Shown here piece after piece: positions 8,201 through 63,060 of a stretch of DNA of 64,000 bases (position 1 is its first letter; each line of letters starts with the position of its first letter). Source of the DNA: Tilletiopsis washingtonensis (Eukaryota > Basidiomycota > Exobasidiomycetes > Entylomatales). The stretch is taken from NCBI RefSeq assembly GCF_003144115.1, contig NW_020312016.1:320777-384776 (forward strand). The letters are read 5' to 3'. Both the position numbers and the translations under genes were made by a program. The notes beneath the pieces were generated by a model. That model saw only the letters and a program-made list of their open reading frames with translations. It ran no database searches and was not told where the DNA came from.

Positions 8201-9316
8201 GGCGGCAGTCTGCGTCCGGCGGCGCCCCTCTCTGCGCTGGCACTCGACTTCTCGGGCAGCACGCCGCCGAGCCGCCGACTCGCCCCCTCGCGCCCCCTTC
8301 TTTGCCGGGCGGCGCCGGCGCGGCGTGTGGTGCTGATCTGCCCGCGACAGCGCCGGCGCTGCGGTCAAGCTAGGCGAGCGCCTCGCGGGCACACGGCGTT
8401 TGCCGCCCGCCACGCCACGCTCGCCACATCCTCGCGCGGATGGGAGCCCGCCACGGCTGGCAATCAAAGCTGTGAAGGCCTTTGAGGGGAGCGAGGGATG
8501 TGCGTGCGGGCGGGCGAGTCGCGCCGTGCCGCACCTGCTCCTGTCGCGGGCGGCGCGGCGGCCGCGTGCATGCAAGCGCCTGCTGGCAGCTGCACCTGCC
8601 CTGCACGGCAGCTCTCTTCTGCGGCGGCACGAGGCCTGCGCCTGCAGCAGCTGCACCTGCCGCCGCGGTGCAGCAGCGCAGCAGAGCAGCACCCGCCCCG
8701 ACGGCCGCCGGTGCTGCAGGGCAGGTGCAGAGCGCGACAGCACGCAGCACGCAGCAGCGCCGCAGCGTGCATCTCTCGCCTCTCTCTGCCGCCGCACGCG
8801 CACCGCACGCGCATCTCCTTCCCGCCTCGCGTTCCCCTCGCTCTGCTCTGCACCATCCCGCTCGCTCCAGCTGCAGCTCTGCGCTGGCCTCTCTCGCTCC
8901 CCACACCCACCTACACTCTCCATCCCGCAAGCTCACCCCGGCGCCCTCCGTCGGCTGCCGCAGCTGCTCGCTCCTCCTTGCCCTCGGCCCGTCGTCCTGC
9001 GTCGCTCGTCAAGGCTGCTGCGTCCTTGCATCGCCTCGACCTCGCCAGCTCCTCGGATCCGCCGGCACGCGTCGCTGCCGCCTCGCGACGCTCCCTCACC
9101 GCAGCAGCTGTGCTCTGCTCGACGTCGACTCGGCCTCCGACGCGCTCCTCTGAGCCGCTCGTCCGTCCCGGCCTCGCCGCTGCAAGCTCTGCTGCGTCGA
9201 CGCGTCTCTCGCGCTCCCTCGCGTCTTCGACGGCAGCGCCGTAGAAGGCCCAGGTCAAGCTCGACGCTCGGCCGCACATAGAGATTCGCCTGCCTCTTTC
9301 CGTCCTGTCTCCCACC
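5269..9316. other. 4-kb gene-free region upstream of the APSES regulator
   Basis: No convincing gene is visible. Long open frames exist on both strands (for example 5942-7318 minus), but their products are mostly Arg, Ala, Ser and Cys with no domain. This is what GC-rich noncoding DNA yields. The last ~600 bases before 9317 become pyrimidine-rich (CTC, TCC runs), as expected of a long fungal leader/promoter. A 14-base motif, CAGCTGCACCTGCC, occurs twice near 8.6 kb. Confidence 0.6.
8587..8730. promoter_or_regulatory. repeated CAGCTGCACCTGCC motif ahead of the APSES gene
   Basis: The 14-mer CAGCTGCACCTGCC is found at 8587-8600 and 8648-8661, with an inverted relative GGCAGGTGCAG at 8720-8730. 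Each copy contains overlapping CANNTG E-box cores (CAGCTG, CACCTG). Position and repetition suggest a regulatory element, but no factor can be assigned. Confidence 0.3.
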
Positions 9317-18105: not shown

Positions 18106-20889
<2,784 letters not shown>

Positions 20890-25700: not shown

Positions 25701-27570
25701 AGGGACGCCACGCTCGCCTCAGAGCGACGCACATCAGAATGCCGAGTGGAACCGCATGCCGCAGTCGCCGTTCCGACACGGCATGCCCAATCAGCACCAA
25801 GGCTCGCTGTCGCGTCACGAGCGGCAGACGTCGTCGCCCTTGTCTCAGCAGCACTTTGGTGGTGAGCCGTCGAACACATTCGAAGCTCGACCGTTTGCAC
25901 TCAATGCGAGCGGCAACGCCGAGACCCGCCGTCACGCCGAGGAGGCGATGCGCCGGGCACGCGCGCAGCTCAGCTCGGCGTCTGTGCGGAACAGCACACT
26001 GCGGTCGCCAACGCCTACTCTGGGCGGCTACCGGAGGCCGCACTCGGGCTCGGTGCGCGAGTGGACCGCAGAGGTCGCTGGTAGACCCACGAGCAGGACG
26101 AGTGCCGCTAGCGCCGCCCACCACGGGCACGGACCTGCTGCGCGACACTTCCCGCGCCTCGCAGACCAGGACACCTCACGCAGCATCTCGCAGGACGGGC
26201 ACCAAGCGATCAACGCCGCGGACCTGAGCTACAGCACTGCCTCGTCGATGCAGTCGTCGCTCAACGCTCTGCAGCGGCGGCACGCGCTGGAGCGCGACAG
26301 CCTGCTCGACATGCTCGAGCGAGCGCGCAGCGAGAACGTCGACCTGCGTGTGCGCAACGAGATGCTACAAAGTGATCTGCATCTCGAAGTCACTCAGGTC
26401 CTTGAGCTGCAGCGCGAGCTGGAGCGACAGAGTAGTCGTGCCTCAGAGCAGGCTGCCAAGGTCGAGGCGCTTGAGGCGCAGCTCGAGACTGAGCACCGCG
26501 ACCGCCTGCGCATCGCCGAGCTGCTCGAGCGCGTGCAGACTGCCGTTGACACTGCCGCCAATGCGCGTTCCATCAACGGACTGAGCCCGACAGCCAGCTC
26601 TGCAAGCATCGTCCAGGAAGATCTGCAGCCCACTTCGCGCCGGGTCTTCGACGTCACGCCGAGCGTGCTCGCTCCGCTGCCGCTTTCGGAGGCCTTCGAG
26701 GATGAAGAACAGATCCTGGCGAGCTTCCGCGGTCATCAAGCCGGCCAACAGCCTCCGGACAGCCATGCGCGGCAGCTGTTCCTGTCGCGCGCCCAGTCGT
26801 CGTACAGCCTCGAGGGCGGCTCCCTGATCGGCGGCGCCTCGATCGTCTCTTCGGATGCACAGCCGCGCAGCCCGAATCAGGGTGCCCCCGACAGATCGCC
26901 GAGCCTGCGCTCGATGCCCAGTGCTCTCGGACTCGAGATCACCGAGCGCGAGCTCGACTGGTCGCTGCACGACGAGGCGCCTCTCGAAGGCGCCGAGAGC
27001 GGCGGAGAAGACGACTTGCCGCGGGACTACGAGCGGTCGACACAGGCTCGTCCAGCCACTCCTCCGGTCAGCCACCGGGAGCCAGCTTTCACCAGTCCGC
27101 CGAGCCGGCGCGTCTCGCAGCTGCCGCAGCCGACGCCTGCGCATGCCAAGCGCTCGACGATGCCCGCATCGCTCTCTGCCAGCGCTCTGCCTGTCGGCGT
27201 CACGAGCGGCATTCCCATGTCCACCTCCGCCTCAAGCATGAGCCACGTCGGGCAGGGCAGCAAGCGAGCCGGTCTCGCCGAGCGCTTCGGCTACCGTGGC
27301 CCGGTGCTGCCGTCGACGATGCAGAACAGCGCGGCCACGCCCGGCGGCGCGCGCCAGTTCTCCACCGCCAGTCGCTTCACCACTACATCGGCTGGCGACA
27401 CGAGCTGGAGCGCCGTCTCGGACGAGCCCATCGGCGGCTTCGTCCACCGCAGCGCCGGATCGGGAGCCGCTGGCGGCTACTACGACCCGCGACGGCCGCA
27501 GGGCTACGACCCTACTGCGCTGCCTGACACGCAGCGCGGCCTGCTCGAGGATGCCGAGCACAGCTACTGA
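22725..27570 (+). CDS. large Ser-rich disordered protein with C-terminal coiled coil
   Basis: Two exons (22725-23173 and 23232-27570) give 1,595 residues. The family is not recognised. Most of the sequence is Ser/Arg/Pro/Ala-rich with many potential phosphorylation motifs (SPxR, RRxS). Near residues 150-185 is a basic patch (TRSKSLRPG, RRIFGRSKSNS). Residues ~1160-1255 form a clear coiled coil (LQRRHALERDSLLDMLERARSENVDLRVRNEMLQSDL, then QRELERQSSRASEQAAKVEALEAQLE). The last 200 residues are Gly/Ser/Tyr-rich. Such architecture is common in fungal polarity, septin-ring or microtubule-associated scaffolds, but no function is assigned. The start is the first ATG of an open frame that joins the second exon in phase. 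Further upstream exons cannot be excluded. Confidence 0.75.
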
Positions 27571-38838: not shown

Positions 38839-40499
38839 CTAGTACGGGTAGCGGAAGCTCTGCAGGTCCTTGTCCGTGCGGTCCTCGAGGCCCTCGAGGG
38901 CGTTGTGCTCCTCGACCTCGCCGGCGGCGTCGCGCTTGTGGTTCCAGTAGCGGTGGATGAGCGCAATGGCGACGAGGCAGCTCGCCGAGATGCCGAACAT
39001 GGCCTCCATGGCAATCTTGGCGGGCAGGTAGTTGGGCGCATCCTGCTGGCGGTACAGCTGCGGGCCGACGATGTTGCCGGCCGAGTAGCCAAGCTGGAGG
39101 GCAGCGTTGAAGACGATGCGCTTCGTCGTGCCGCCGATGCAGCTGGAGAGCCAGGAGTAGTAGAACTGCGGAATGAGAAGGTCAGTGCGCAGCTCGGGGG
39201 GCGAGTCGCAGAGAAAGGCACTCACGGGACTGGCGACGGGATAGGCGAACACGATGGTGTAGCCGAGGAACTTGACGGCCGAGGTGAGGCTCGGGCTGAT
39301 CATGAGGGCACCGCCGACGAGCGCGACGAGGAAGGCCGCGCAGCCGGGGATGGCACGGCTGCCCGTGCGGTTGGCGAGCCAGGCGCCGGCGGCGATGAAG
39401 ACACCCTCGGCGAAGCCGGGCGCCATGCCGAGCAGCGCCGTGTCCTTCTTGTTGTAGCCCAGACCGGAGATGATGGCGCTGCCGAAGTTCGAAACGCCGC
39501 CGTTCGCCACGTTGGCCGCGGCGACTCCGCAGAAGAAGAGGTACAGACGGGGGTCGCAGAGCGCCTCGCGCAGCTGGTCCCACTTGAACGTCTTGTCGTG
39601 CAGGCCCGTCTTGTTCTCGCGCACGCGCTCGATGGCCACGAGGCGCTCGCGCTTGCTGAAGAAGCGGCAGTGCTCCTCGGGGCCGCAGGGCATGAAGAAG
39701 AAGACGGGGAATGCGTAGAAGGCCGTGATGGCGCCGAGGATGATGAACATGGTGCGCCACGTCTGCAGCGGCCCGGCAGGCTGCGAGAGCAGGCCGTAGG
39801 CAATGCCGCCGCCGAGGATCTGGGCGGTGGCGTTGGCGCTGAACCACCAGCTGGTGCGGATGACCTGCTCCTTGCGCGTGTAGAAGCGGCCGGTGACGAG
39901 GATGAAGGCGGGCGTGAGGCCGCCCTCGAGGATGCCGAGGAAGATGCGGCAGGCGACGAGGCCGGCGTAGTTGTATGCGGCGGCATGCAGGCCGAGGCAC
40001 GTGGCCCAGAGCAGAATGACGACGCCGACGTAGCGCGAAATGTTGAAGCGCTGCAGCATGTAGCCGTGCAGCGGCGAGGCACCGAGCCAGCCGAGGTAGA
40101 AGGCCGAGCCGAGGAAGCTGTACTGCTTGCCCGTCAGGTGCAGGTCCGTCTTGACGCCGAGCAGGTTGGCGTACTGCGGGGAGGTGGTCAGCAACGGTGC
40201 GATGCTGCTCTCGTCATCGCACGGCCACTTACGTTGAGCGACGTCTTGTCGAGGAACTGCAGCAGCACGGAGCAGTACATGAGCGGCATGAGGATCGTGT
40301 CGATCTTGCGCAGCACGCGCTTCTTCTCGGCCTCGTCGATGGGCGCCGAGTCGGCGGCGCTGATGGGCTCGCCGTCGTGGCCGAGCGCGGCGAGCGTGTC
40401 GAGCGGCGACGTCGACACGACGGCCTTGTCGCCGCCGTGCGACGAGGGCGAGGCACTGCGCTTCTCGACGGCGTCGAGGTCTTCGATGGAGCGAGGCAT
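38839..40499 (-). CDS. MFS transporter, allantoate permease (Dal5/ACS) family
   Basis: Three exons (40499-40233, 40173-39226, 39165-38839) encode 513 residues. The start at 40499 (MPRSIEDLDA) opens a hydrophilic N-terminus of ~90 residues, followed by twelve predicted membrane segments. Family marks are VLLQFLDKTSLN-YANLLGVKTDLHLTGKQYSFLGSAFYLGWL, RIFLGILEGGLTPAFILVTGRFYTRKEQVIRTSWWFSAN and the C-terminal Y..GNI-GPQLY. Anion:cation symporters of this family import allantoate, nicotinate, pantothenate, biotin or similar carboxylates. The substrate cannot be told from sequence. The second intron (60 nt) is in frame and free of stops, so retention would add 20 residues inside a loop. Confidence 0.9.
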
Positions 40500-42122
40500 G
40501 TTGAAGAGAGAAGGAGGAGGTGTGTGGGGCATTGGAAGATGAGGCGAGAAGAAGCGGCCTTCTTGTACCCCTCACGACGTCCTGCTCGCCACGGGACGGA
40601 TCGGAAGATTATCTGTCCTCGCCTTCGCTGCACCCGCCTGCGCTAGCTTGCATTCGATGTGTGCCTGATGCTGATGCCCGCTGCCTGCCTGATGCTGCGT
40701 CGAGCTGGCCGGCTGGAAGAATGTTGCGAGCCCGGTTATCGCACGACCCACTTTCGTCCACCGTGCCCACGCTAGAGTGCCGCCACCATGCATCTGCAGC
40801 GGCCAGGGACGCATCTGCATCAGCTGCCCGGCGCAGGCCACCTGCCCTGCGGTGGCCACGTCTGTGCTGAAGCGACCCGGAAATTTACTGCAGCCCAGCC
40901 TTGCCCCCTGGAGAAGCTCGGGAGCGCAGCAGCCGCCGCAGCGGCCATGGGCAGGGTCGCTTGCGAGGCGCAGCTGCACGAGAGGCGGAGACGCGCTGCG
41001 GTTGCGGCAGCGGCAGCGGCAGCGGCGGGAAGGCGGCGGCGGCACGCCCACGCGATGTGATCTCGCGCGCGGCGATGCGCTGGCGCTGCGCCTGCTGCAC
41101 GGCGGCCGCTGCGCGCGCGAAGAAGCTGGCCGCCGCTGATAAGAGGCGGCGAGAGCGCCGAGCCGCCTCTCATGCCGTGCCGCCTCGTCGAGTCCGATGC
41201 CATCGGACCGGCCGCTCCGATGGAGGCACGCCGCCTCTTGGGCCGCCTACTCACGCCTTGGGCCGCCTGGGCCGCAACCAGCTTCGCCCTCAGCTGCCGC
41301 CGGCCGGCGCGGAGTGGGCTCGATGCCGCCCTTCCCGCCCTGCCCCGCCGCGGCTGCCAGCACCCGAGCTTCGCGCGAGCCCGCCAGCATGCACAGGCCC
41401 AAGGGGCCAGGGGCTCGGAGTGTGAAGCTAGGAGAGGCGCGCGCCTATACCCACATCCCCTTCCCGCGTTGGAGCCCGATACAACCTTGCCTTCGCTCCA
41501 ACAGCGAGCGGGGGCGCGGCGCTGGAGTAAGCGAGCTCGGCGATGGCGAGAGCAAAGAGGCGCGCGCAGCAAGAGATATCGCAGGGTGCAAGGGCACGAC
41601 AGCAAGCCGAGCATCGCCGAGCCAAGGCCAGCAAGCCGAGAGCTGCCGAGGCTCAAGTCGAGCGCCTCGAGCAAGGTCGAGAAGTCGAGAACTATCCGGC
41701 CAGGCTGCAGTGCCTGGCCTCGAGCCATGCCTGAGCTCGAGGCTGTGAGCGGCTGCGGAGCGAGATGCTGCCGCTCTGGCACCGCCTGCACCGCCTTGAG
41801 CGGCCTCACACGACAGGGGATACCATGACGCTGTGGCGCTTCCATTTCCCCTTCACTCGATGCATTTGCGACTACTTTGAGCCTCTGATGGCCGAATGAA
41901 GATGATTGACAGGAGCTGCGAAGCGGTGGCAGAGGGCAAAAGAGAGGTGAGGCGCGCGATGCGGTGCTTCGACGCGCGCGCGGCGCAGCACAGCCACGGC
42001 GCTCGGCACTCGGGCGGCGCAGCGAGCACCGCCTTGGCCTCGAGCATCCGCGCGGCCGTGCGGGGCACGCTCCTCCCTCCACAACCTCCATCCCGCCTCA
42101 AGCAGAGAGAGGGAGCGCAGCC
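40500..42122. promoter_or_regulatory. 1.6-kb divergent region, transporter and orphan gene
   Basis: The transporter (minus) and the orphan gene (plus) both point away from this stretch. It is GC-rich with GCAG/CGGC runs around 40.9-41.3 kb. Several open frames exist but none has a recognisable domain. Confidence 0.5.
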
Positions 42123-49798: not shown

Positions 49799-49985
49799 CT
49801 GCACCCCCGGGCGGGCGGCGAGGCCGTGGAGATGAAATATCGCATACCGTGTCACCTTGAGCTGAGCGAGAGACGCGCAAGGGCAACTAGAGAGACTGTG
49901 TATTGAGATCCGAGCAGCGGATATAGTAGCCGCAGCTTGCCTCGCGCCTGAGCGCTCCCCTCCCTCGCAGTGTCGCCCTCGTCGC

Positions 49986-51538
49986 TTACAGGCCCATCTC
50001 CTTCTCCTGCAGCTTGGCAATCGTCTGGCGCTGGATGTTGCTCGTGCCCTCGTAGATGGCTGCAGAGCGGGAGGATCAGCAAGCAGCGCGCAGAAAGAGG
50101 GGGACTCCTCGACTCACCGCCGATCTTCGAGTCGCGCCAGTACTTCTCGATGCCCGTCTCGCGCGTGAAGCCCACGCCGCCAGCCCACTCGATGGCGCTG
50201 CCCGAGACGCTCTGTGCGACCTGGGACGAGTAGATCTTGGCCATCGCCGCCTGCTTCGTGAACGGGCGACCCTCCTCCTTCAGGCGTGCGGCGTTGTACA
50301 CAAGCAGGCGCGCGGCCTCGATCTCCGTGGCGGCGTCGGCCATCTGGAACTGCATGCCCTGGAAGCTGGCCACCGGCTTGCCGAACTGCGTGCGGTCGTA
50401 CGCGTAGCGCACGCTCTTCTCGTACGCGCCCTGCGCAATGCCGACCATCTGCGCGCCAATGCCCACGCGGCCCTCGTTGAGAATCTCAATGGCAATCTTG
50501 TAGCCCTTGCCCTCCTCGCCAATCAGGTTGGCCGCGGGCACCTTGACGTCGTCAAAGTTGACCGTGCACGTCGACGAGGCCTTGATGCCGAGCTTCTGCT
50601 CCTTCTTGGCAATCTCGACGCCCATGCTCTTCTCGACGGCAAAGGCAGAAATGCCCTTGTAGCCCTTCGAGGGGTCGCCCTGCGCGAAGACAATGAAGAA
50701 CTCGGCCTCGGCAGAGTTGGTGATCCACATCTTGCTGCCGTTGATGATCCAGTCGCCGTTCGAGTCCTTCTTGCACGTCGTCTTCATGGCGAAGGCGTCT
50801 GAGCCAGACGAGGGCTCGGAGAGGGCAAAGGAGCCGAGCTAGGGCAAAAGAGTGAGCGCGAGCGAGTGCTGCTGGCGTGCAGGGCAGACTCACCACCTCC
50901 GTCGAGAGCTGCGGCAGGTACTTGTCCATGAGCTCCTTGCTGGCGTACTTGCGCAGCACCGTGTTGACGAGCGTCTGCAGGCGGGGCATCAGGGACAGGA
51001 CTTGCAGGCACACGCTGGCTGCCACTCACGTTGTGCACGTCGCAGAGCACCGAGACCGAGGCGTCGACTTTTGCGAGCTCTGCATCGAACGTGTCAGCCC
51101 GCGGCAGCTTCGCCGCCGCACGAGACACAGCGCACCCTCAATGACGATGATCGCCGCCGTGAAGCTGCAGCCCGCGCCGCCGTGGTCCTGGCTCGTCTCG
51201 ATGCCCATGAGGCCCTGCTCAAAGAGGCCCTTGATGATGGCCGGGTCCATCTTCTCGTTCTCGTCCATCTCGCGGACCTTGGGCTCGACGACCTCAGTAG
51301 CGAAGCGACGCACGGCCTCGCGCAGCATCTCCTCCTCGTCGGAGAGCTTGGCGAGCGAGTTGATGCCGAAGGGCGACTCGAAGTCGTTGCTGCGGCATGC
51401 GGAGCCGCTGAAGGCACGCGAAGGCGCGGCAGCAGGTGAGGCGACGGCGCGGGAGGCAGAGGCGATGCGAAGCGAGGCGGGCGCACGGCGCGACGCGGCA
51501 CCGGCGGCGCGGAGGAGGGGAGCGCGGAGAGAGGCCAT
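49986..51538 (-). CDS. short/branched-chain acyl-CoA dehydrogenase, mitochondrial
   Basis: Five exons (51538-51136, 51079-51030, 50974-50894, 50838-50118, 50059-49986) encode 442 residues. The first ~45 are Arg/Ala/Ser-rich without acids, a mitochondrial presequence. The acyl-CoA dehydrogenase fold follows: FEQGLMGIETSQDHGGAGCSF, SEPSSGSDAFAMKTTCKKDSNG, the FAD-binding WITNS, YDRTQFGKPVASFQGMQFQMAD and the C-terminal AIYEGTSNIQRQTIAK, whose Glu is the catalytic base. It resembles ACADSB-type enzymes that oxidise 2-methylbutyryl- or isobutyryl-CoA with FAD and pass electrons to ETF in isoleucine/valine or short-chain fatty acid breakdown. Exact chain preference is not determined from sequence. 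The ending KEMGL gives no peroxisomal PTS1. Confidence 0.93.
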
Positions 51539-53333
51539 GGTGTGTGAAGGGCGGTGGTGTGGTGGTGGTGCAGAGGCAAGGCTGAGGTGGCACGCAGCAG
51601 GTGACGGCACCCGCTGCCCCTCGGCCTCGGGCAGCCGCCGCCGTCGTTGGCCAGCCACGCGGCGCGGCGCATGCGGCTCGTGCCCCGCGGCGAAGGCACC
51701 GCCCCTGCGCGCCGGACGAGGCGGACGAGCGCCGCCGCCAAGCATGCGCGCGCCGTCAGCATCGCGCAGCGGCGCCAGCCTCCCGACCCGCCGGCTCCTC
51801 GTTGCTCTCTTCTCACAGCAGCACCTCAGTCGACGACGAGGGTGAAGCTCCTCCCACGTGCGGCTGGCTGGGCGAGATGCCACGCGCGCCGCCGCATGCT
51901 TCTCCCCGCACGCCGCTCGCTGCGCGCCTTGATGTCAGCGCGCGCGCGCCTCCGCAGGCTGCGTGAACGCTCGACGCCGGCGGACCGGCCCGGCAGCAGC
52001 TCAGCCGGCGCATCGCCAGCGGCCGCCCGATAGCCGCGACCCGAGATCCGGCACGTGACGCCGTCTCCCCTTCTCTCGCGGCAGCATCACCGGCTTCCCG
52101 TCGCTCCTTCGGTTTGCTTCCCTCCCACTGTCCTCCCGATGAGCTAGCTTTGGGGCCCGAAATGCGCGTATGAGAGCTGCGTGCGTAGAGAAGCTGTCAA
52201 ACAGGGCCTCTGGTCTTGCAGAATGGCTGCAGAATGGCTCAGGCGTCGTCAAGATGTCGCCCGTTCTCGCGAGCACCTCAGTTCACTTGCTTTCTCTTCT
52301 CGACGCCTTCGCGGACGCCAGCAGGGAGATGCACTGTTTAACGAGCGACCTTGAATGCGACCACTGATGTGCGAGAGCTTGTGTCAGGCAAGCGCCGGAG
52401 TAGTGCGCCCGCGACAACCAAGACTGCCGCTGAGCCGCTGCGAGCTGCTGACGCTGCGCGCTGCGCTCTGCTCCTGCGCAACAAGCCGTGCTCTCCTCCT
52501 CGCCAAGTGCTGCGATGCCGTCGTGCCGCGGTGCCGCTTGGTACGAGCAAGCATGGAAGAGCGTCACAGCCCGCAGCTGCTGCACTGCCCACGAGGTCTG
52601 AGAGACGCATGCACGCGCAGGCGCAACGGCTGATCCGAGAAGAGGAGAGCAAGCTTCGCGATGCCCGGCGCCGAGAGACGAGAGCAAGGATCGTTGCCGC
52701 GCTCTGCTGCGTCCGAGAGGCGCCGTCACCATCGCAGCGCTGCCTTCGCATGCGGCTGCGGCCTCTCGCGCTGCCTTGTCTCGTCTCGGCTCCACCTCGC
52801 TGCATCTTCGCTCTGCATCCGCGAGGCGTTCTCTTGATTTGCGAATTGCAGCGGGCTGGAACTCAATCTGCGCTGCTGCTGCTCGCTGTCCCGGGCTTGC
52901 CTCCGGTGCAGCCGCTGAGACGCCCAAGATGAGCCTGCGAGAGGAGCGTTCGGGCAGCTCGCCAGCGAGAGAGAGCCGTGACGCTGCCTTGCGGCGGAAA
53001 GCCACACGCGGGCGGAGGCGGAGTCGCAGCAGCCGCAGCTGCCAGCATAGCAGCTCGAGGTGTCGTCGCTCGGCAGCGACGGGACGCCGATCCGCCCTTG
53101 CGAGCCACTTTCTCCTCTCGCGCGCCCCTCTCGCAGGCCCCCCTCTCGCGAGCTCCTATCCGTCAAGGGTGCAGCCAAGAGCAGCACGAGAGGAAGCGGC
53201 ACGTGCGACAGACGCATGAAGCTCAGCGCCCGAGACCCTGACGCTTGAGCGTGCTGCAAGAGGGATGCTGCTACGGTTCGGAGTCGAACACGTCGCGGCC
53301 CCGTGCGTCTTGCACGGGGGAAAGAGGGCAGGG
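51539..53333. other. 1.8-kb gene-poor region left of the Fanzor island
   Basis: This region holds the acyl-CoA dehydrogenase promoter on its left and the 3' flank of the Fanzor gene on its right. A less GC-rich part at about 52.1-52.4 kb contrasts with GCAG-rich DNA from 52.4 to 53.2 kb. Open frames have Arg/Ala/Ser composition only. Three perfect small hairpins occur at 53241-53319. Confidence 0.5.
53241..53319 (-). ncRNA. candidate guide-scaffold (omega RNA) hairpins downstream of Fanzor
   Basis: Three perfect inverted repeats lie within 95 nt of the Fanzor stop codon. CCCCGTGC/GCACGGGG has an 8-bp stem and 5-nt loop (53299-53306 with 53312-53319). GTTCG/CGAAC has a 5-bp stem and 4-nt loop (53276-53280 with 53285-53289). 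ACGCT/AGCGT has a 5-bp stem and 2-nt loop (53241-53252). TnpB and Fanzor systems encode their guide scaffold at or just past the nuclease 3' end on the same strand. The position fits, but transcription is unproven and a simple terminator-like structure remains possible. Confidence 0.4.
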
Positions 53334-55712
53334 TTACGCGCGTGGCCGCCAGGGCCCCACGCCCCAGTTTAGCTGGTGAACGCCTGCGTGGGCGATGTTC
53401 GCGGCGCCGACCATGTCGCGGGCGAGTGCGCAGCGGCAGTGCGGGCAGTACTTGACGTCGCGCGACGGATAGCGGGCGCTGCGCGAGCGCCAGAGCGGCA
53501 GCAGCGGGGGCGCGTCTGCGCAGCGCGGGCACACCGACGACGTGAGGTACTCGTCCTGCGTGCGCCAGAGGATCGTCGCGGGCAGTGGCGTGAATGCGGC
53601 GCGCTGCATGACGGTGCGCAGCAGCGGGCCGGCGTGCGTCGGGTGCTTGAAGCCGCGGCCGCCCCCGCTGCTTGTCCCGCCGCTGTGGAGGACACGGCGT
53701 CAGTGTCGTTCAGTGCGTTCCCGGCGGCGTGCCCAGGCCAGAGCACAGCAGGTGGCCACAGCCTGCGCATCGCCAGCGTGAACTCACGGCCAGTCGCCGA
53801 CGTGTGCCACGACGACGAGCTTCTTCTCCTCCTCCCACTTCTGGAAGCGCCTGCTGTAGAAGCCCGGCGCGCACGCGAGCCACTCGATGATCTCGTCAGC
53901 CGCACGACCCCTCTTCTTCTTGACGTCTTTCTTGCGGGCCTCGGCGTGCGGTGCGCCGACGCCAAAGGCGTGGCTGATGCGCGCAAAGGCGTCCGCGGCG
54001 CTGCGAACGGGCTCCGCCTTGGTGAGTGGCCGGAGAGCTCCTCGCTCGCTGGATTCCTGGGCGCCGTGAACGGGCTCCGCCTTGGTGCGGCGCTGGAGTG
54101 CTCCTGGCTTGATGGACAGCGTCTCCCAGCGATCCCAGCGCTCGCAGGCGGCCGCGTTGGCGTAGTAGCGGCGCGGGGCGTTGACGACTGGGCGCAGCCC
54201 GAGTTCTGGCGGCGGCGTGCCGGGGAACTCGATGATTGTGCCCGGCAGCAGAGGCCGCGTGCGGTGCAAGGCGGCCACGTTGGTGTTGCCCGGATCGATG
54301 CCCACGTGCACGACGGTGCTGTCGGGGTCGGCGTCGGCCAGCAGTGCCTTGATCTTGAAGTCGGGCATGCCTCGCACCAGGCCGCCAGCACGTCCGCGCG
54401 GCGGCGTAAAGTCTTCGTCGGAAGGCAGCGGCAGCGGAGCTCGGAGCGCCGCTTGCAGCGCTGCAGGAGGCAGCGCAGCGAGCCACATGGACCCGCGCGC
54501 GTACACCTCGACGTTCTGGTGCATGCTCTGCACAGTCTCCGCGTCACTGCGGCCCTTTGGGCGACGCAGATTGACGTAGAGCCAGCGGCAGTTGACGCCG
54601 TCGCTGTACAGCGTGCCCGTGGGCAGCCAGGCAGGCCGGAAGCCGAGTCTTGCCCATGGAGAGGCTCTCGGGGACCGCGACGACCGCGTCGTCGAGCCGG
54701 AGAGCAGTGCTTCGAGGCGCGTGACCGTGCCCTCAGCTGCGCCCCGGCTCGTCGCGGCCATCGCTTCGAGCGCACTCAGCAGGGACGGACGCGGCCGCCA
54801 CAGGTTGCCGTCTTGAAACAGGCCGCATCGCTCGAGCCACTCGTGCTCTGTGAGAGACAGTTGCGAGGCCCACTTGCCGAGGGCAGCTAGGCGCCCGGGC
54901 GCCGCGCGGGCGACGGCTGGCAGCGAGCTGGGCGTGAAGATCTGGTGGAACGTGCCTGCGGCTTTCGGACGGCTGCGGCCTACTGCTGCGGCTGGCTGCA
55001 GGGCCCGCACCCACCCCTCCAACAGATCTACTGCCGCACCGCCGGGTAGCTCCTCCAGGAGCTCTCTTGGCGTCCGTGATGGCGTTTGGGAGGAGGCGGC
55101 CTGCATCTTCTTGAGCATGTGGAAGTCGCGGCGCCGCAGCATCTCCTGGTCCTGATGCGGCATGCCTGCGTACGAGCTTGAGGCCCCGAGCGGGGTATTG
55201 AGAGCGAGGTCAACGAGATCGCCACTGCCAAGGCACTGCTCGGCTTGGGCAAGAAGATGCGGCACAGACGCTCGCCTGTGGCGCCCCGCAGTCTGGCCGA
55301 CGCTTTGGCACATGACGTGGTCCGCAAGGCTTCTGGGGACGAGGGGCCAGCCAGCCTGCAGAGCCCTGCGTGCCCGCAGCACCGAGGCGGGTGCATCAGG
55401 GTGCCGGGCCCATATGAGGAGCTCCTCCTCTGTCCAGCAGTTCCCAGCTTCTGGAGGCTCACGGCTGCGAGCCATGCCGCTGCGAGACGGGCGCACCCCA
55501 CCTGCCTCGCAGCAGCAGAAGTATGCGAGCTCTGTGAAGCGGCGGTCCAGCTCCTCGTCTTTGCAGTCAGTGAGGTAGGCAGGGTCGAGGTGCTCAACCA
55601 GGCGGTCTAGCGTGGCTGCAAGGTACTGCTGCACGCCAGCAACCAGGGCTACCGTGGCAGTGAGCTCACGAGGCAGAGTTGACGAGGAAGAGACAGACGC
55701 AGTGCCGAAGAT
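53334..55712 (-). CDS. Fanzor (eukaryotic TnpB-like RNA-guided nuclease) module
   Basis: Two exons, 55712-53788 and 53682-53334, are joined by a 105-nt GTGAGT intron. The C-terminal half has the TnpB/Fanzor RuvC core in order: VHVGIDPGNTN (RuvC-I Asp, codon at 54296-54294), VVVAHVGDW, DEYLTSSVCPRC (RuvC-II Glu, 53552-53550, then the first Zn pair), YCPHC (second Zn pair) and LARDMVGAANI (RuvC-III Asp, 53417-53415). All three catalytic acids and four cysteines are present, so it looks functional. The N-terminal ~450 residues are helical and poorly conserved, as in this family. A 21-residue degenerate repeat (GAL.R.TKAEPV) sits between RuvC-I and RuvC-II. No ATG lies near the 5' end of this frame. 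The frame continues in phase from the upstream XPG-like ORF through a 208-nt intron, suggesting one fused gene. Confidence 0.85.
54005..54130. repeat. degenerate 63-bp tandem repeat inside Fanzor coding sequence
   Basis: The 20-mer GAACGGGCTCCGCCTTGGTG occurs at 54005-54024 and 54068-54087, period 63, with weaker similarity across the rest of each unit. It encodes a 21-residue repeat containing TKAEPV and keeps the frame. Confidence 0.6.
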
Positions 55713-55896
55713 CTGTCAATGAGGGCGAGTCAGCCGCCAGTCCGCATGAGCCGCCTGAAGGCTGCGGCAGGAAGAAGGCGGCCAGGGACGCTACGTGCGA
55801 CGCGAGCGGGCCGGCAGCCGCGTGCCGGCACGCGCGCCGCTGCCGTGCCGCCCAAATGATCTGCAGCACATGGCGCGTCCTCCAGCCTCCCCACCC

Positions 55897-57720
55897 TCAC
55901 CATCCTGCGGGCCGGCTCACCTTGATGAGTGTCTTCCTCGCCTGTGAGCTTGAAGTCTCCCCACCCTCGTCCTCCTCCTCCTCCTCCGCTGCCTCGTCCC
56001 TGCTGGCAAACGGCCTGCGCTGCTTGCCCAGCTTGAGCTTGGGCTTGCGCCCAGCCTTCTTCGCCTGCTTGCCCTTCTTCTTCTTCTGCACGCGCTTCTT
56101 CGCCCACTTCTTGCCGCTGCGGCGCGTGACACGCTGCGGCGGCGTGAGGGGCGTGACGAGCGGCGAGGACGCAGCCTTGGGCACGAGGTACGTGCGAGCG
56201 ACTCGCGTCTGGCGTCTTGAGAGCGTGCGTGCGCGAGCGCGCTTGCCGCGTCCGTGGGCGTCAAGCACGGGCACAAAAGGCGCGCTCGCAGAGAGGTGCC
56301 TGTCAACACGATGGAAGGTGAAGCCGCTCTGGCCGGTGCTGCTGCTGGTGTCGCGGCGGAAGCCGAGGATGTTGCGCGAGCCATGGTCATCGATCGTCGT
56401 CGGCCGAGGCTGCGTGGCGGTGCCATGCGTGCCGAGCACATAGATGTCGGCCACGGCGCAGACGGTGCTTGCGTCGGCGGCATTGCTGCCGGCAAGCGCA
56501 GCCACACGCCGGATGAGCGCATGCACTGTTGGCCGCAGCTCTGCTCCCGGACCGCTGCCGATGCTCGACCAGGCGCGAGGCAGCAGGCGGCCCTGCTCGG
56601 ACGCCGTGCCACGCACTGCTCGCGTCAGGCGCGCCTCGCCGATGCCCGGCAGCCCGTTGGCATAGTCGGTCGTGCTCAGTGCCACGAGCGCAAGGTAGAG
56701 AGCCGGCGCAAAGGAGGAGGACGAGGAGAACACCTGTGGCCATGTCTCGCTCATGGCGCCGCCAAGGAGGGTGCGATCGTAGAGGAAGTGACTGCGGTAG
56801 GGCGGCGGGGGCTCGTTGCGGAGCAGCCTCTTGCGCGAGCGGGAGCGCGACGTGGCGGGCACGGGGCACACCAGCCAGCGGTAGCCCTGCAGCGTGGCGT
56901 CATGGGCCAACATGTCCCCGTCGACGGAGAGCACGGCCGTGCCCAGCGGCTGCCGCAGGGCACGCGTGATGCGCGCGATGAGACAGTCGGCCTCGTCGGG
57001 CGCTACAATATGCAGCACCCCATCAAGCCGCAGCAGCGCCTCCTCGAGCTGGTCCTCGGCGACCAGGTGGTGGCCGTCGCGGCCGCGGACAAACATGCGC
57101 TCTACGCCTGCGGCCGAGTACATGCCGTCTTGCTGCAGGTGCTGCATCACCGCAGCGCTGGCGTAGCGTAGGAGCTCCGACTCTTGGGAAGCGCGAGCCC
57201 AGTTGGCCGCGAGGACGGCGCGCTCGCGCATGCGGTGGCTGGTCGTGTCGACCTTCAGCTCAGCGACGGCGGGCCCGTCCCAGCAGCACAGCAGGCGCGC
57301 GCCGGCGCCGTGGGCAAGCTCGGCATACTCGTTGACCTGCGCCACAACACCCTCCACCACTGCCGCGACGTGAGCTCTTGCGTGTATGAGAGGGGAGAGC
57401 GCAAACTTACCCGTCTCGGCGAGCACAGACAGGTCGCGTGGCACTCTCGTGCCTGTGGCCGAGGCGTCGACCGTGTCCAGCGGGGCCGCCGATGCGGCAG
57501 CCGCGGCCAGCGGCTGGCCAGCGATGCGCGCTGCAAGCGAGTACACCAAGGGCATCGTGTCGACGACGAGGAAGCGCAGCGGCGCTCCCACCGCCACGGC
57601 ATGCTGCAAGGCCGCACGCTCGCCCTGGTGCACGTTGCGCTGGCGGCCCCAGCTGATGCCGCCGATGCGCGCATGCCGGAGCGCCGCATGGCTGGACGTG
57701 GCGCCGAGCTTGAAGCCCAT
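55897..57720 (-). CDS. XPG/FEN1-type structure-specific nuclease module
   Basis: Starts at ATG 57720 (MGFKLG, like the MGI/MGV start of FEN1/XPG). A 51-nt GTAAGT intron (57410-57360) lies in frame. FEN1-like acids all appear present: D54 (FLVVDT), D131 (CCWDGP), E226 and D228 (APDEAD), D250 and D252 (SVDGDM) and D335 (TTDYANGLPGIG, the helix-hairpin motif). A Lys/Arg-rich stretch at about residues 515-554 (KKWAKKRVQKKKKGKQAKK and on) is a strong nuclear-localisation candidate, followed by an acidic run. Without further splicing the frame stops at 55897. With a donor at 55920 and an acceptor just before 55712 (208-nt intron, CTGAC branch site, phase 0 on both sides) it continues into the Fanzor frame, giving about 1,340 residues. 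Such nucleases cut flaps or bubbles. The role here is unknown. Confidence 0.8.
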   Translation of the reverse strand: MGFKLGATSSHAALRHARIGGISWGRQRNVHQGERAALQHAVAVGAPLRFLVVDTMPLVYSLAARIAGQPLAAAAASAAPLDTVDASATGTRVPRDLSVLAETGKFALSPLIHARAHVAAVVEGVVAQVNEYAELAHGAGARLLCCWDGPAVAELKVDTTSHRMRERAVLAANWARASQESELLRYASAAVMQHLQQDGMYSAAGVERMFVRGRDGHHLVAEDQLEEALLRLDGVLHIVAPDEADCLIARITRALRQPLGTAVLSVDGDMLAHDATLQGYRWLVCPVPATSRSRSRKRLLRNEPPPPYRSHFLYDRTLLGGAMSETWPQVFSSSSSFAPALYLALVALSTTDYANGLPGIGEARLTRAVRGTASEQGRLLPRAWSSIGSGPGAELRPTVHALIRRVAALAGSNAADASTVCAVADIYVLGTHGTATQPRPTTIDDHGSRNILGFRRDTSSSTGQSGFTFHRVDRHLSASAPFVPVLDAHGRGKRARARTLSRRQTRVARTYLVPKAASSPLVTPLTPPQRVTRRSGKKWAKKRVQKKKKGKQAKKAGRKPKLKLGKQRRPFASRDEAAEEEEEDEGGETSSSQARKTLIKVSRPAGW

Positions 57721-58323
57721 GGCGCCTCTGGGTGCGCGAGAGATGCGTGTGTGGGCAGAGGCTTCGAGGCAGCAGGAGCAAGAGGGGTGAGTGTGCAGCG
57801 GGAGGCGCCTACTCGCCGCTGAACCCATGGCCGCACAGCTTCGCCGCAGCGCTCTGCGTCCCTCGCCGCTGCGGCGGCACGTGCCCGCAGCTGCTTTGGG
57901 CTGTGCCCCTGACTCGGCAAGCCCGGCGCCGCTGGGCTGAAGCACTTTACGGGCGAGGTGCGTCAGCGGCACTTTGCGGTAGAACCCTGTCTGGCAAGAC
58001 GTCCTGCTCACTGCGTGCGTGCATCATCCATGGGCGCGGCGGAGCCGACACCCTTGGCACGGCCGCGCTCGCACCGACTGCCGCTGCCGCATGGCCGTGC
58101 GCCGCACATGGTCCTTGGCCCTGCCGGCTGAATCGGCAGCCGGCGCAGCAGCAGCAAGCGGCAGCACGCCAGCAGCAGCGCCGCAGCAGCGCCGCAGCCA
58201 TGCCCGCGGCCTGCCCGTGCGGCAGCTTGCCCGACACGACGAGGGCCCGCCACAGCATCTTCTCGGCCACCTCCTTCTCTCTCTCCCCTCCTCTCGCCCT
58301 TGTCGTGGCGCTGCGTCGCCACC
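57721..58323. promoter_or_regulatory. divergent promoter between XPG-Fanzor and OTU genes
   Basis: A 603-bp spacer from which both island genes are transcribed outward. It is GCAG-rich in the middle, with CTC-rich leader sequence just before 58324. The arrangement suggests co-regulation. Confidence 0.5.
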
Positions 58324-61300
58324 ATGGCCATCGAGCTCACGCTCACACACGACATCATCGACATGAACGAGCGCCTGTCGCGCAGAGCGGCGCCGCCGCT
58401 CGCCGCGCCGCACCCGCAGGCGTGGCAGAACGACGACGGCTCGCTCAACTGCTCGCCCTTCGCGCGCTGCGTGCTCGTCGACCCGGCGCTGCCGGCCGCC
58501 GGCTTCTTCAATCAGCAAACGTACGTGCTGATCCGGCAGGCACTCGAAGATGCGTCGCCCTTGGCACGGCGCAGCAGCGTGCGCCTGGGCACGTTTCTCG
58601 GCGTCGTGGCCCGCATTGCGCCGGCGGTCGCTGCGCCCGAGGAGCACTGGGCCTCGCGCGTGAGTGCACGGCTCTGCGCAGACTCGCTCCAGGCCCTGTT
58701 CTGACCCGACTCGCTGGCAGGCCGCCGCCGAGCAGATCCGGCAAGACATCTGCGCCTGGCTTGGCATGCACAAGAAGGACGGCATGCTCGACGAGCTCGT
58801 CCGCGCCGCCATCGCCGAGGACGCCGAGAACGAGGCGCAGATGTCGGGCACGGAGCATGACGCGCGCACGCCGCGCTGCGTGCCTGCCGGTGTTCCTCTG
58901 CTCGACTACACGCTCGACCGCCTGCTGCACGCCATCGCTGGCCCAGACCAGCTCTTCGGGGCGGTCATGAGCGTCAGGAGTCTGAATGAGTGGGCATGCG
59001 GCATGGGGCGCGAGGCGCACGGCCTCACTGCCGCACCAGAGCCACTCCAGCCTGCGCCGACGCCGGAGCAGGCGCTGCAGACGTGTGCCAAGGCCCCGGA
59101 GCCGCTGGCGCTCGGAGATTCCGCCTGCAGCGTGCCCACGCTGGTGGGCGTGTATGAAGACGTCCTGCTAGTGGAGAGCGGCCAGCGCCTTGACGGGCTG
59201 CTGCCAGAGGCTGCTGCGCCCGTGCCCGACGAGCAGGCCGTGCCGCAGGGCATGCCGCAGGAGTGGGAGGTGCTCGACGACGCCGCGTGGCCCGAGGACG
59301 CGGAGGCGCAGGAGGCACTGCGCGCCGGCTGCGAGGGCTCGCCCGACCACGACAACAACGAGCTGCCGGCCATCGAGCCGCCCGCCGACCGAGCTGCCGG
59401 GCTCGAGCTCACCGACGACGAGCCGCCCGCCGGCAGCTCGGACCGCGCTGCTGTGCTGCGGCAGCGCATGTCGCTGCTGGCCGGAAAGGCCAAGCTGCAC
59501 ACAGCGCTTGGGCTCGAGAGTCCGACCGGCTGGCGCGCGCGCTGGAATGGTGGTCTCGTCGCCGTCGACGCTGCCGATCCTCGCTTCCAGCGGCTTGTGG
59601 TGTGTGTCTTTGCCATGCCGGACCCTCCTTCCTTCCGCGCCGTTGCTGCTGCGCTCGACGATGCCGGCGTGCACGATCTCCGCCCGGTGCTGGCCGCCCT
59701 CAAGTCTAGCCCGGGCGTCAAGTCAATCAGCCGCAAGGACTGTGCGTGTCTTGCCTGCGCACCAGTATCCGCTGCTGACGCTGCTGCCACACAGCCGCTG
59801 CAAGCAAGATCGCCAAGACGCTGCGCGACCAGTCGTATGAGCTGTATGCCGCTCGCTGTCGCCGGCCGCAGTCGGAGGCTCCGAGCGCATCGCGCGCATC
59901 GCCTGCACCGAGCGCGTCAAGCGTACTGCCCCGCTCCGACCTGCCGAACGCGCTGTGCGATGCTCTGCAGCAAGAGGTGCGTGGCGGCCAGGCCTCGTTG
60001 CCGCGCCTGCGCCAGCTTGTTGTCGATGCCCTGCTCGTGCATCGAGGCGAGGAGGCTGAGCCCCGCTGGCGCACCGTGGCGCAGGAGTACGCCAGCAGCC
60101 GCGGCAGGACGGATGAGGAGCTTCTGCCAGCTCTCACGCATGCAGCTGGGCTGGGCGGCCCTGCCATGTGCGCCTGGGCCGAGGAATCGGGCTGGGGCTG
60201 GACGGTCATCGTGGAAGAAGTTGTGCGCCTAGCCAACGAGCGCCTCGCTGCAGAGCGGGACACGTTCAATCGCCAAGTTGTCCTTGACGACCAGGCTTGG
60301 CACGCCTGGCGGCTGAGCGTGTCCCACTTTCAGCGCGCCTTGCGCGTCCTCCAGCACGAGCTGCCCGAGCGCACCCGCCGGCGTCCGGCGCCCACGCCGG
60401 CATCGACTGCGGCCTCGCCTGCCAAGCGCCGCCGCAATGCGCAGCAGCCCGCAGGCACGTCGTGCGACTGCTTCAGCGACACCGCGGTCGCAGCGATTGT
60501 GGTCGCCACCGAAGCGAAGCTCACCGCACAGCGCGCTGCGGCGCGAGACCTCGACGGGGTCGCCGAGGCCCCCCGCTGGTCCTCGACACGGTCGCTGATC
60601 GCACGCACAGACGAGGTCCGTGGCGATGGCGCGTGCGGCTGGCATGCCCTGGCCGCCCACGACGACCAGGACCCCCTCGAGATGCGCCGCTCTTTCCACG
60701 CTGCTCTACTCGCCGAGCCAGAGCGTTTCCTCCTCACTGTCGACGCAGACGCCGCCGAACCAATGCTGCGCAGTGCCCTGTGCCGCAGCTGCCCCGAGCA
60801 CCCGCCCGTGGGTGGCAATTCGGACACCTGGCTCGACATTGGCTCCATGGGACCCTTTCTCGCCGAGTTCCTGAGCGGTGAGCTGCAGGGCACGCCATGT
60901 CGCGCTGCAGGGCGTGCCAAACTTCTGATCTGACTCGCCTTCCCGACCCTGACAGATCGGCTAGTCGCTCTGCATCCCTCCTTTCTCTCTGCGGGCGCGT
61001 TGCAGGGGGAGACTTACCTCCCGCTACGCCTGCTGCACGAGCCACGCACCCGCGTCATTCTCCACACGGGTGGGAATCACTTCTGCGTGGCTCGCCTGCA
61101 CGGCTCCAGCGGCGGTGACAACGAGCCCTCGAGTCATGGCGTGAGTGTCGTGTGTCGATGCCGCCGAGACGCCCGGCTCACTCTCATGCAGAACCAGAGC
61201 GGCGGTCGCGACAGTGACGACACCACGTCGGGCGGCCACGGCTCTCCCGACTCACTCAGCCTCCCTCCTCCTCAAGAATGGTGGCGCAGAGCCGCTCGGG

Positions 61301-61341
61301 CATTCCAGACTAATGCCTGGGTGTCTCTGGGGCAGCACTAG
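58324..61341 (+). CDS. large protein with C-terminal OTU-type cysteine protease domain
   Basis: Five exons (58324-58659, 58721-59741, 59795-60877, 60956-61140, 61192-61341) encode 924 residues. The first ~690 residues are not recognised. They are acidic in the middle and include helical blocks (QQTYVLIRQALEDASPLARRSSVRLGTFLGVVARI; WTVIVEEVVRLANERLAAERD), with a basic PAKRRRN near residue 675. The C-terminus has the OTU pattern: VRGDGACGWHAL with nucleophile Cys at about residue 733 and HTGGNHFCVARL with His at about 855. OTU domains are deubiquitinases and are also carried by several eukaryotic transposons. Its divergent pairing with the XPG-Fanzor gene suggests a shared element, but no transposase signature is seen. 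Confidence 0.75.
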
Positions 61342-61447: not shown

Positions 61448-61989
61448 ATTAGAGGTATCCTTCTATGCGGTGGAGACATGGTCCGCACGGGCCCGGCAAC
61501 TTGGGCAGCCGCAGCAAAGCGTGGCACAGGCTCAGGCGCCCGCGTGGCCGTTCAGGAAAGCCTCGCACGGACCGGCTTCGTTCGCGTCGCGAACGAGCCG
61601 GCACGTGACTTTGCTGGCTTTCTGCGCTGCCGCCGCGCACGCCCCGCGCCTGCGACGCGCGACTGACTTGAGTTTGGGGCTACCTCGACCGGCGAGGAGC
61701 GCCAAGCTCTAAGCCGCGGAGTAGCGCTACCGGCCGGGAGAGGCGTGGGAGCGCACTCGGAGCGGTGGTCGGAGACCGAGAGCGGAAGCTTGGTGCTGCG
61801 GTGACGAATCCGCAGACGAAGACGATACACTGGCACGGGTGAGAGTGCCGGTGTCGATCGAGGCAACGCTGTTGTGCAGCGCTACACCTTCGCAGCCGTG
61901 TGACGGGCAGCGGAAGCCGAGCGTGACGTCTACAAGTAGACGCGACGCGCCGAGAGGCCCAGTCGATGAAGACTGCGGCGGCTCGGGTC

Positions 61990-62150
61990 CAAGGAGCTAC
62001 GCCGGGGCTGGCGAAGCGACTCGATCGAGATGCGACGTCGGTGCTGGCGACGCGTCTCAATAGGCGAGAGGCCTCACCGGGGCTGGTGACGGCGGCTCGC
62101 GAAGGGGGCAGAGAGGCCTCACCGGGGCTGGTGACGGCGGCTCAGCGAAC
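61990..62150. repeat. 45-bp tandem repeat, two good copies and one degenerate
   Basis: A 28-base core starting GCCTCACCGGGGCTGG is at 62071-62098 and 62116-62143, period 45. A diverged relative (ACGCCGGGGCTGGCGAAGCG) precedes it near 61990-62025. Confidence 0.65.
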
Positions 62151-62934
62151 AAGGGCAGACTCTGGAGAGAGCGCGCACGAGTCAATTGCTGTGAGAGGCA
62201 ATGTAAAGACAGAGGGGAATAATTGGGTGACATGTGCGCTCGGGGGCTGGCTCGCGTGAGTATAAGAGGGGAGCGCGCCTGTCGAGGAGCGAGACAGGCG
62301 CAGTGCGTCGCGCATGGCGCAAGGAGAGACACTAGGCGCAGCCTGAGTGTCGAGAGAGGAGCCGTCAAAATCGGACGGCGAGGAGGGGCGGCCGCCGGCT
62401 CAGGGGGTGATGAGCCGGCGGCATTAAGGGGCGCACGCGAGCGCTAGGTGCGAGCGATGCCTACGTCCTGCCTGTGCTCGCAGCATCAGGGTAGGTTCGG
62501 CAATCATCGCTGCGACACCCGCCGTGATGGAGGGGGTGATGTGAAAGGAAGAGGTTGAGGAGCCGACGCGGGATGAACCATGCGCGGCGGCAACGAAGGC
62601 GGTGATCGGTTGCTGGGCGTTGCGCAGCGGCGTGTGCGAAGGCGGTGGCGCCGGCTGTGACGAGCGTGAGCAGCGCGATCGCCCCTACCTCTTCCAGATG
62701 ACGAGACGCGGGGATCGGAGGCGAGCGGAGCGGCGAGTCAAAGATTGTTGGAACAAGAACGGTCGGCGAGACGAGGCGGCGGTGAGGAGACGAGTGGCGG
62801 TGATGCGAGGCGTCGCAGGAAAGGGCGCAGTGTCGGCGACGATGAGGCGTCGGCGCGTGCGTCCCGCAGCGGCGTCGGCACGGACCGCGAGATCGCTCTA
62901 TAGGGGCTGCGCGACAGGGGCCGGCGAGCGACGG

Positions 62935-63060
62935 CGACGAAGCCGTGGCGTCGCACGGACTCTGCGATGTGAGGCGCGCGCAGCCCTGATCGCAATTCGA
63001 CGAAGCCGTGGCGTCGCACGGACTCTGCGATGTGAGGCGCGCGCAGCCCTGATCGCAATT
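62935..63060. repeat. perfect 63-bp tandem duplication
   Basis: The unit at 62935-62997, beginning CGACGAAGCCGTGGCG, is repeated without visible change at 62998-63060. The identity implies a recent duplication or active homogenisation. Confidence 0.85.

Follow-up and report, generated by a model that had tools for sequence, protein, structure and literature searches.

Organization of the locus

Our analysis concerns a 64-kb stretch of the genome of the basidiomycete Tilletiopsis washingtonensis (assembly GCF_003144115.1, contig NW_020312016.1, positions 320,777 to 384,776; hereafter the window, numbered from its first nucleotide), in which a minus-strand gene at 53334..57720 is predicted to encode a FEN/XPG-like nuclease and a Fanzor RNA-guided nuclease in a single protein. 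Such a single-gene fusion had been proposed in an earlier note made from the letters of this DNA, and comparison with three full-length paralogs makes it almost certain that the two halves are joined in one gene, in the window as well as in the paralogs. The predicted gene consists of four exons (57720-57411, 57359-55921, 55712-53788 and 53682-53334), a model drawn from a codon map and from the alignment of the spliced product with the three paralogs. Direct reading of the minus strand showed the ATG at 57720 and confirmed the elements that the earlier note had listed around the junction of the halves: a GTGAGC donor at 55920, a CTGAC branch-like site at 55733, an acceptor ending at 55713 and an exon starting at 55712, all in phase 0.

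The predicted intron at this junction (intron 2, 55713..55920, 208 nt, GTGAGC..CATTGACAG, phase 0) is one of three. Intron 1 (57360..57410, 51 nt, GTAAGT..GCGGCAG) lies in frame, so that the frame is open in either splice state; with this intron removed, the window model aligns with the paralogs there, the unspliced form having been compared by eye only. Intron 3 (53683..53787, 105 nt, GTGAGT..CTCCACAG, phase 2) connects GDW with GGTSSGGG. The previously announced product of about 1,340 residues is reached, at exactly 1,340 amino acids, on the condition that two further predicted introns, 57410-57360 and 53787-53683, are also removed; the product would have 1,357 amino acids if the 51-nt intron were kept.

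From its N-terminus, the protein comprises the FEN/XPG-like nuclease domain (56260..57720, residues 1 to about 470), a weakly conserved linker that passes from Lys-rich to Glu-rich in the alignment (55921..56259, residues about 471-583) and the Fanzor module (53334..55712, residues 584-1340). A second gene lies head-to-head with it on the plus strand (58324..61341, ends approximate), the two start codons being separated by a 603-bp divergent intergenic region (57721..58323) that presumably carries both promoters, and a candidate guide-RNA scaffold follows the stop codon of the fusion gene (53242..53319, minus strand). The earlier account of the locus was right about the fusion; it overlooked the head-to-head gene, the candidate guide-RNA scaffold and the predicted 51-nt intron that interrupts the first coding segment. 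Chance open reading frames (ORFs) abound in this GC-rich window, which is overlapped by 179 of at least 150 amino acids, so that open frames alone carried no weight for us and we sought the proof in comparison.

Diverged paralogs and the age of the fusion

Six-frame searches of the genome (18.7 Mb, 32 contigs) recovered relatives of the Fanzor ORF on contigs C1, C25, C15 and C5, and the FEN half of one paralog, L009, used as query retrieved four full-length loci plus fragments. Besides the window, full-length fusion copies occur at three loci, L008 on C1, L009 on C25 and L010 on C15; their joined models measure 1,360, 1,438 and 1,373 amino acids, as compared with 1,340 for the window, and share 40, 32 and 33% identity with the window protein. 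In L008, a single ORF of 807 amino acids runs from the FEN-like part into the N-terminus of the Fanzor and is free of introns at the site of the window's predicted junction intron, reading 'EKLVGIFGIATV' where the window reads 'KTLIK|IFGTASV'. In L010, an ORF of 1,189 amino acids covers both halves, and its small predicted junction intron lies in frame, so that the halves are joined whether it is spliced or not. At the position of intron 2 we predict an intron of 51 nt in L009 and one of 48 nt in L010, with none in L008; at that of intron 3, L008 is again intronless and introns are predicted in L009, L010 and the partial copy L011.

Both halves single out the same closest pairs, namely the window with L008 (FEN 40.5%, Fanzor 38.5%) and L009 with L010 (FEN 42.8%, Fanzor 42.0%), which implies that the fusion most likely preceded the duplication of the copies. 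The four diverged paralogs of identical architecture, the intron-free junction of L008 and the parallel divergence of the halves bear out the proposed fusion; far from being always unlinked in relatives, as the earlier note had allowed for, the two modules are joined at all four full-length loci. Differences between copies decrease from third to first to second codon positions in both domains for all six pairs (the linker behaves irregularly), a pattern that fits coding constraint; as the comparison is near saturation, we claim no dN/dS. Third-position GC of the fusion genes ranges from 0.77 to 0.89. Five partial or decayed copies are found elsewhere in the genome: L011, which is a C-terminal Fanzor piece; three pieces of the FEN half alone, on C5, C6 and C15, of which two have in-frame stops; and a weak match of 44 amino acids on C17.

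The two nuclease halves

The FEN/XPG-like half begins with MG and carries D54, D131, K139, R146, E226, D228, D250, D252 and D335. All seven FEN-type acids that had been reported were found and, together with K139/R146 and the MG start, they are invariant in the alignment of the four full-length copies and ordered as in the active sites of FEN1 and EXO1, to whose acidic residues and catalytic Lys/Arg pair they correspond. An EXO1-like pattern, 'APxEAD...xxDxDxL', is also present, the EXO1-like gene on contig C7 of the same genome having 'APYEAD..TEDSDLL'. Among Pfam families, XPG_I_2 (PF12813) was listed for all four FEN halves, the best of them (E 6.4e-4) scoring short of the gathering cut-off, and XPG_I for one of the four (E 0.025). 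A profile search of PDB sequences returned no FEN match, so that the assignment rests on the motifs and on sub-threshold matches.

The Fanzor half displays an SDG, WED-like motif (residues 953-955), the DPG of the first RuvC aspartate (D1056), the alternative glutamate or Ealt (E1269), a zinc ribbon (C1276/C1279/C1304/C1307) and a final RD (D1314). The complete RuvC triad and zinc finger read earlier in the window extend to its relatives, the D-E-D triad being invariant in the four full-length copies and the four zinc cysteines in all five sequences, L011 included. According to passages of PMC10711439, DPG at the first RuvC aspartate combined with Ealt is a Fanzor fingerprint, and a TDG motif in the WED domain is a further Fanzor feature. 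DPG is conserved in the five sequences, the partial L011 among them, as is the glutamate six residues ahead of the zinc ribbon, within DE[YF][LM]TSxxC; in place of the published TDG, three of the four full-length copies have SDG and one has SNG. The Fanzor1 pattern D-x(125,275)-[TS][TS]xx-C4 finger-x(5,50)-RD, given in PMC3627910, matched 5/5 sequences with the finger spacing kept loose. Pfam PF07282 (Cas12f1-like_TNB) was listed for the four copies (best E 7.2e-6); the window's exon 3 ORF scored 28.6 on its own, above the cut-off of 26.3, and the joined window protein 23.9, below it. The NCBIfam model guided_TnpB matched all five sequences far under its cut-off, and the best PDB match of the Fanzor half was the Spizellomyces Fanzor SpuFz1, whose E of 0.077 is not significant alone. 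Inside the Fanzor coding region (53997-54116, minus strand) there is also an imperfect tandem duplication of 57 bp (82%) at a spacing of 63 bp, by which an LTKAEPV-like stretch is repeated.

A divergent partner gene

Comparison of 6-11 kb on either side of the four full-length loci revealed at each of them a homologous partner gene, divergently oriented and head-to-head with the fusion gene. When the L010 copy served as query in a six-frame search of the genome, it matched these four loci only, at E up to 1 and among the nine best candidates scored. The other flank holds no shared ORF of 100 amino acids or more, and no partner relics were seen beside the partial fusion copies in the stretches examined. 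The gene comprises several exons in the window and an ORF of 1,242 amino acids in L010. Its C-terminal domain contains DGxC in all four copies (Cys codon 60634-60636 in the window) and, late in each of the four translated sequences, an H[FY] (His codon 61078-61080), a DGxC block with a late histidine followed by an aromatic residue being what we take to be an OTU protease motif. This weakly suggests an OTU-protease-like C-terminus; Pfam gave no OTU match for the domain, and for the rest of the protein only weak hits at chance level, none convincing.

Part of the L009 partner gene (160 bp, L009_up 8056-8215) is 97% identical to a stretch behind the L010 partner gene (L010_up 6319-6476), the partner genes being about 27-33% identical. 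It may reflect a recent ectopic exchange or be the remnant of another copy.

The region downstream of the stop codon

Short hairpins directly follow the Fanzor stop codon at the four loci; in the window, three of them (53319-53299, 53289-53276 and 53251-53242) lie within about 95 nt past the stop. An RNA produced from this stretch would be a candidate guide RNA, as we infer from position and folding. Since a folding run with 60 shuffles proved noisy (near-identical L009 stretches gave -1.41 and -2.43), the test was repeated with 300. Folding z scores of the 120-nt stretches starting at the stop codon were then -1.86 in the window and -4.78, -2.44 and -2.56 at the other loci; starting 20 nt earlier, they were -1.91, -2.16, -3.15 and -2.85. 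At both offsets, each of the four fusion ends had a lower z than any of the 12 control gene ends (p 0.0005 each, one-sided Mann-Whitney), a small set of controls that includes four partner genes and some mechanically defined ORFs.

A noncoding repeat also occurs just past the stop codons of L009 (5906-5932), L011 (5227-5325) and an unrelated gene on C11 (L039:7851-7947). The three share 27 near-identical bp, and L011 and L039 share 99 bp at 87%, able to form a GUUUGUG..CACGAAC hairpin. We rejected this repeat of about 99 bp as a guide-RNA or right-end signature, as it is not specific to fusion genes and its Rfam matches were at chance level only.

Neighbouring repeats, other window genes and external relatives

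A 1,316-bp repeat next to the partner gene (61683-62998) has copies of 96-98% identity on C15 (beside L010), C7, C22 and C18. Considered as a possible end of an element, it turned out to be a single long terminal repeat (LTR) of a retrotransposon, apparently copia-like when the C22 copy is judged by eye. At two of the four fusion loci, a single LTR of this one family lies no more than about 1.4 kb from the partner gene, which by a rough estimate seems to exceed chance.

Elsewhere in the window, Pfam identifies ordinary host genes: an MCM3-like helicase (18568-20886, plus strand), an acyl-CoA dehydrogenase (49855-51934, minus), an MFS transporter (38842-40608, minus) and a CorA transporter (2-739, minus). 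For an open frame of 1,479 amino acids at 23131-27567 (plus), it gives no match at E 0.01. A fungal host is indicated by a Zn2Cys6 domain of fungal type in the window, by chitin synthases matched strongly on several of the contigs and by the lack of any match to a chlorophyll-binding family.

Outside this genome, no protein carrying both modules came to light; what a profile of the FEN half detected were three JGI metagenome proteins that match this half only. Among them, P0002 is 99.0% identical to L009 over 610 aligned residues, P0003 98.1% identical to the window over 479, and P0004 66.1% identical to L009 over 342 aligned residues (of its first 345, the apparently out-of-frame remainder having been left out). 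Searches with the whole-fusion profile and with the RuvC region, as well as of viral contigs and prokaryote genome contigs, yielded no relatives, which says little on eukaryotes. In the whole-fusion and FEN-half profile searches, the best 8,000 candidates by shared words were scored, with an Ala-rich query.

In the literature searched, we found no description of a FEN-Fanzor fusion, though one could be present in a survey of eukaryotic Fanzors, and none of an OTU-like partner as a component of a Fanzor system. Such a fusion is not mentioned in the passages available of PMC10711439, PMC10432273, PMC3627910, PMC11423790 and PMC12636532, and the expression 'Fanzor flap endonuclease homologs', where it appears in the passages available, names viral genes and not a fusion.

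Discussion

The duplication of the fusion gene and its partner as a two-gene unit, together with the presence of decayed relatives, leads us to read the locus as a low-copy selfish cassette or its recent descendant. We favour, tentatively and just short of calling it probable, a two-gene cassette that is, or lately was, a selfish or mobile element combining a guided cut with FEN processing. An RNA from the 3' end of the gene would guide the Fanzor RuvC domain to its target, which this domain would open and cut, and the fused FEN domain would then remove 5' flaps or the displaced strand, leaving a gap or a resected end. With such an end, simple re-ligation would be prevented, and repair from the cassette, or its homing, would be favoured. 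More speculatively, the OTU-like partner may shield the nuclease from ubiquitin-dependent removal. With less confidence, the locus may be a eukaryotic RNA-guided element of a new class, homing or self-preserving, in which a two-nuclease enzyme unites a Fanzor cut with a built-in 5' flap or resection activity and is accompanied by an OTU-like partner.

Several observations weigh against this interpretation. No two fusion copies are nearly identical, so that recent transposition is not visible. Terminal repeats within 900 bp on each side of the fusion gene did not stand out, the best inverted repeat of L009 (score 12, at most 11 in ten shuffles) being the only one above its shuffles at any locus. 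As this comparison is blind to ends lying beyond the partner gene, it was extended to 2 kb outside both genes, where none of the four loci exceeded its shuffles (40 each, 8 tests; the closest, an L008 direct repeat, was reached by 1/40). No transposase was recognised by Pfam among 20 window ORFs or among the partner ORFs searched at the other loci. The FEN assignment is sub-threshold, at a Pfam score of 19.7 bits for a cut-off of 24.2, and the OTU call is weak, the best PDB match of the partner being EschOTU (E 0.056) and a weak Pfam match (E 0.19) pointing to an arterivirus protease family that is presumably OTU-like. As for the putative guide RNA, the hairpins of the window are the weakest of the four loci, and by eye the hairpins of different loci do not align. 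The fusion 3' regions rank at 8.5, 0.25, 11.5 and 1.25% among 400 random stretches, two of which gave no value; in the run with 60 shuffles, at a 40-nt offset, one control ORF reached -3.78 and MCM3 -2.31; and comparable dips occur within the scanned kilobase, of -2.5 at +460 in the window and -2.8 at -220 in L010.

The main rival to a selfish or mobile element is domestication, in which the copies would be immobile host genes serving, for example, genome defence or programmed DNA changes. Four full-length and strongly diverged copies (32-40% identity to the window), the lack of detected ends, the third-position GC of 0.77-0.89 and the occurrence of almost unchanged FEN halves (99.0% and 98.1% identity) among JGI metagenome contigs all agree with it, whereas the five partial or decayed copies and the co-duplication with the partner resemble an element that is gained and lost; on balance, we find domestication rather unlikely.

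A second possibility is that the FEN/XPG-like domain acts on RNA and trims the guide RNA out of the fusion gene's mRNA, at its 3' end, which would make the protein a self-processing RNA-guided nuclease and not a two-cut DNA enzyme. XPG_I_2, a family that we take to include Mkt1/Asteroid-type proteins with RNA-related roles, is the only Pfam family matching all four FEN domains, and the candidate guide RNA sits just 3' of the stop. Nevertheless, that match is sub-threshold, the seven acids and two catalytic basic residues of DNA-cutting FEN/EXO1 enzymes are all kept and, to our knowledge, Fanzors and TnpBs produce their guide RNA without any FEN-type domain. We regard this role in RNA processing as unlikely.

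The FEN domain could also serve transposition by resolving a single-strand or flap intermediate, the large N-terminal part of the partner being an unrecognised transposase. The partner is indeed large (the 1,242-amino-acid ORF of L010), has chance-level Pfam matches and is linked to the fusion gene at 4/4 loci, and Fanzor1 genes are carried, as PMC3627910 describes, by several transposon families (Mariner, Helitron, Sola, MuDr and others). With no ends detected, no near-identical copies and nothing recognisable as a transposase among the scanned ORFs, we nonetheless judge such a function distinctly improbable. Finally, two adjacent genes with a merely coincidental window intron would be extremely improbable, for although splice sites are easily spotted by eye in GC-rich DNA and the spliced models are predicted from sequence, L008 reads through the junction without an intron, L010 keeps the frame across it either way and the architecture is the same in 4/4 copies.

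If the cassette with a guided cut and FEN processing were confirmed, eukaryotes would have evolved RNA-guided enzymes that cut DNA and then process its ends, and a Fanzor system would include a further component, the OTU-like partner. The addition of a structure-specific 5' nuclease through a natural fusion, with catalytic residues kept in four diverged copies, makes the role that Fanzors play for their elements directly testable.

Known Fanzors have one nuclease domain. They measure about 500-800 residues according to passages of PMC10711439. Like Fanzor1 proteins such as SpuFz1, the fusion has a DPG RuvC-I motif, a glutamate six residues before the ribbon, a C4 ribbon, RD and, in three of four copies, an SDG-like WED motif. 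It differs from them by 526-610 extra N-terminal residues with a FEN/XPG-like nuclease, by its paired divergent partner gene and by the absence of a recognised surrounding transposon. With Fanzor1-carrying transposons the fusion loci have in common several dispersed and partly decayed copies, whereas they are without detected terminal repeats and without a transposase in the ORFs scanned. XPG_I_2 proteins are the best, if sub-threshold, family match of the four FEN halves, which here, by contrast, are fused to a Fanzor. Finally, the FEN half resembles the 5' structure-specific nucleases FEN1, EXO1 and XPG in its seven acids, its Lys/Arg pair seven residues apart, its MG start and its TDYxNG..xG stretch, and is distinguished from them by being very divergent and attached to an RNA-guided nuclease.

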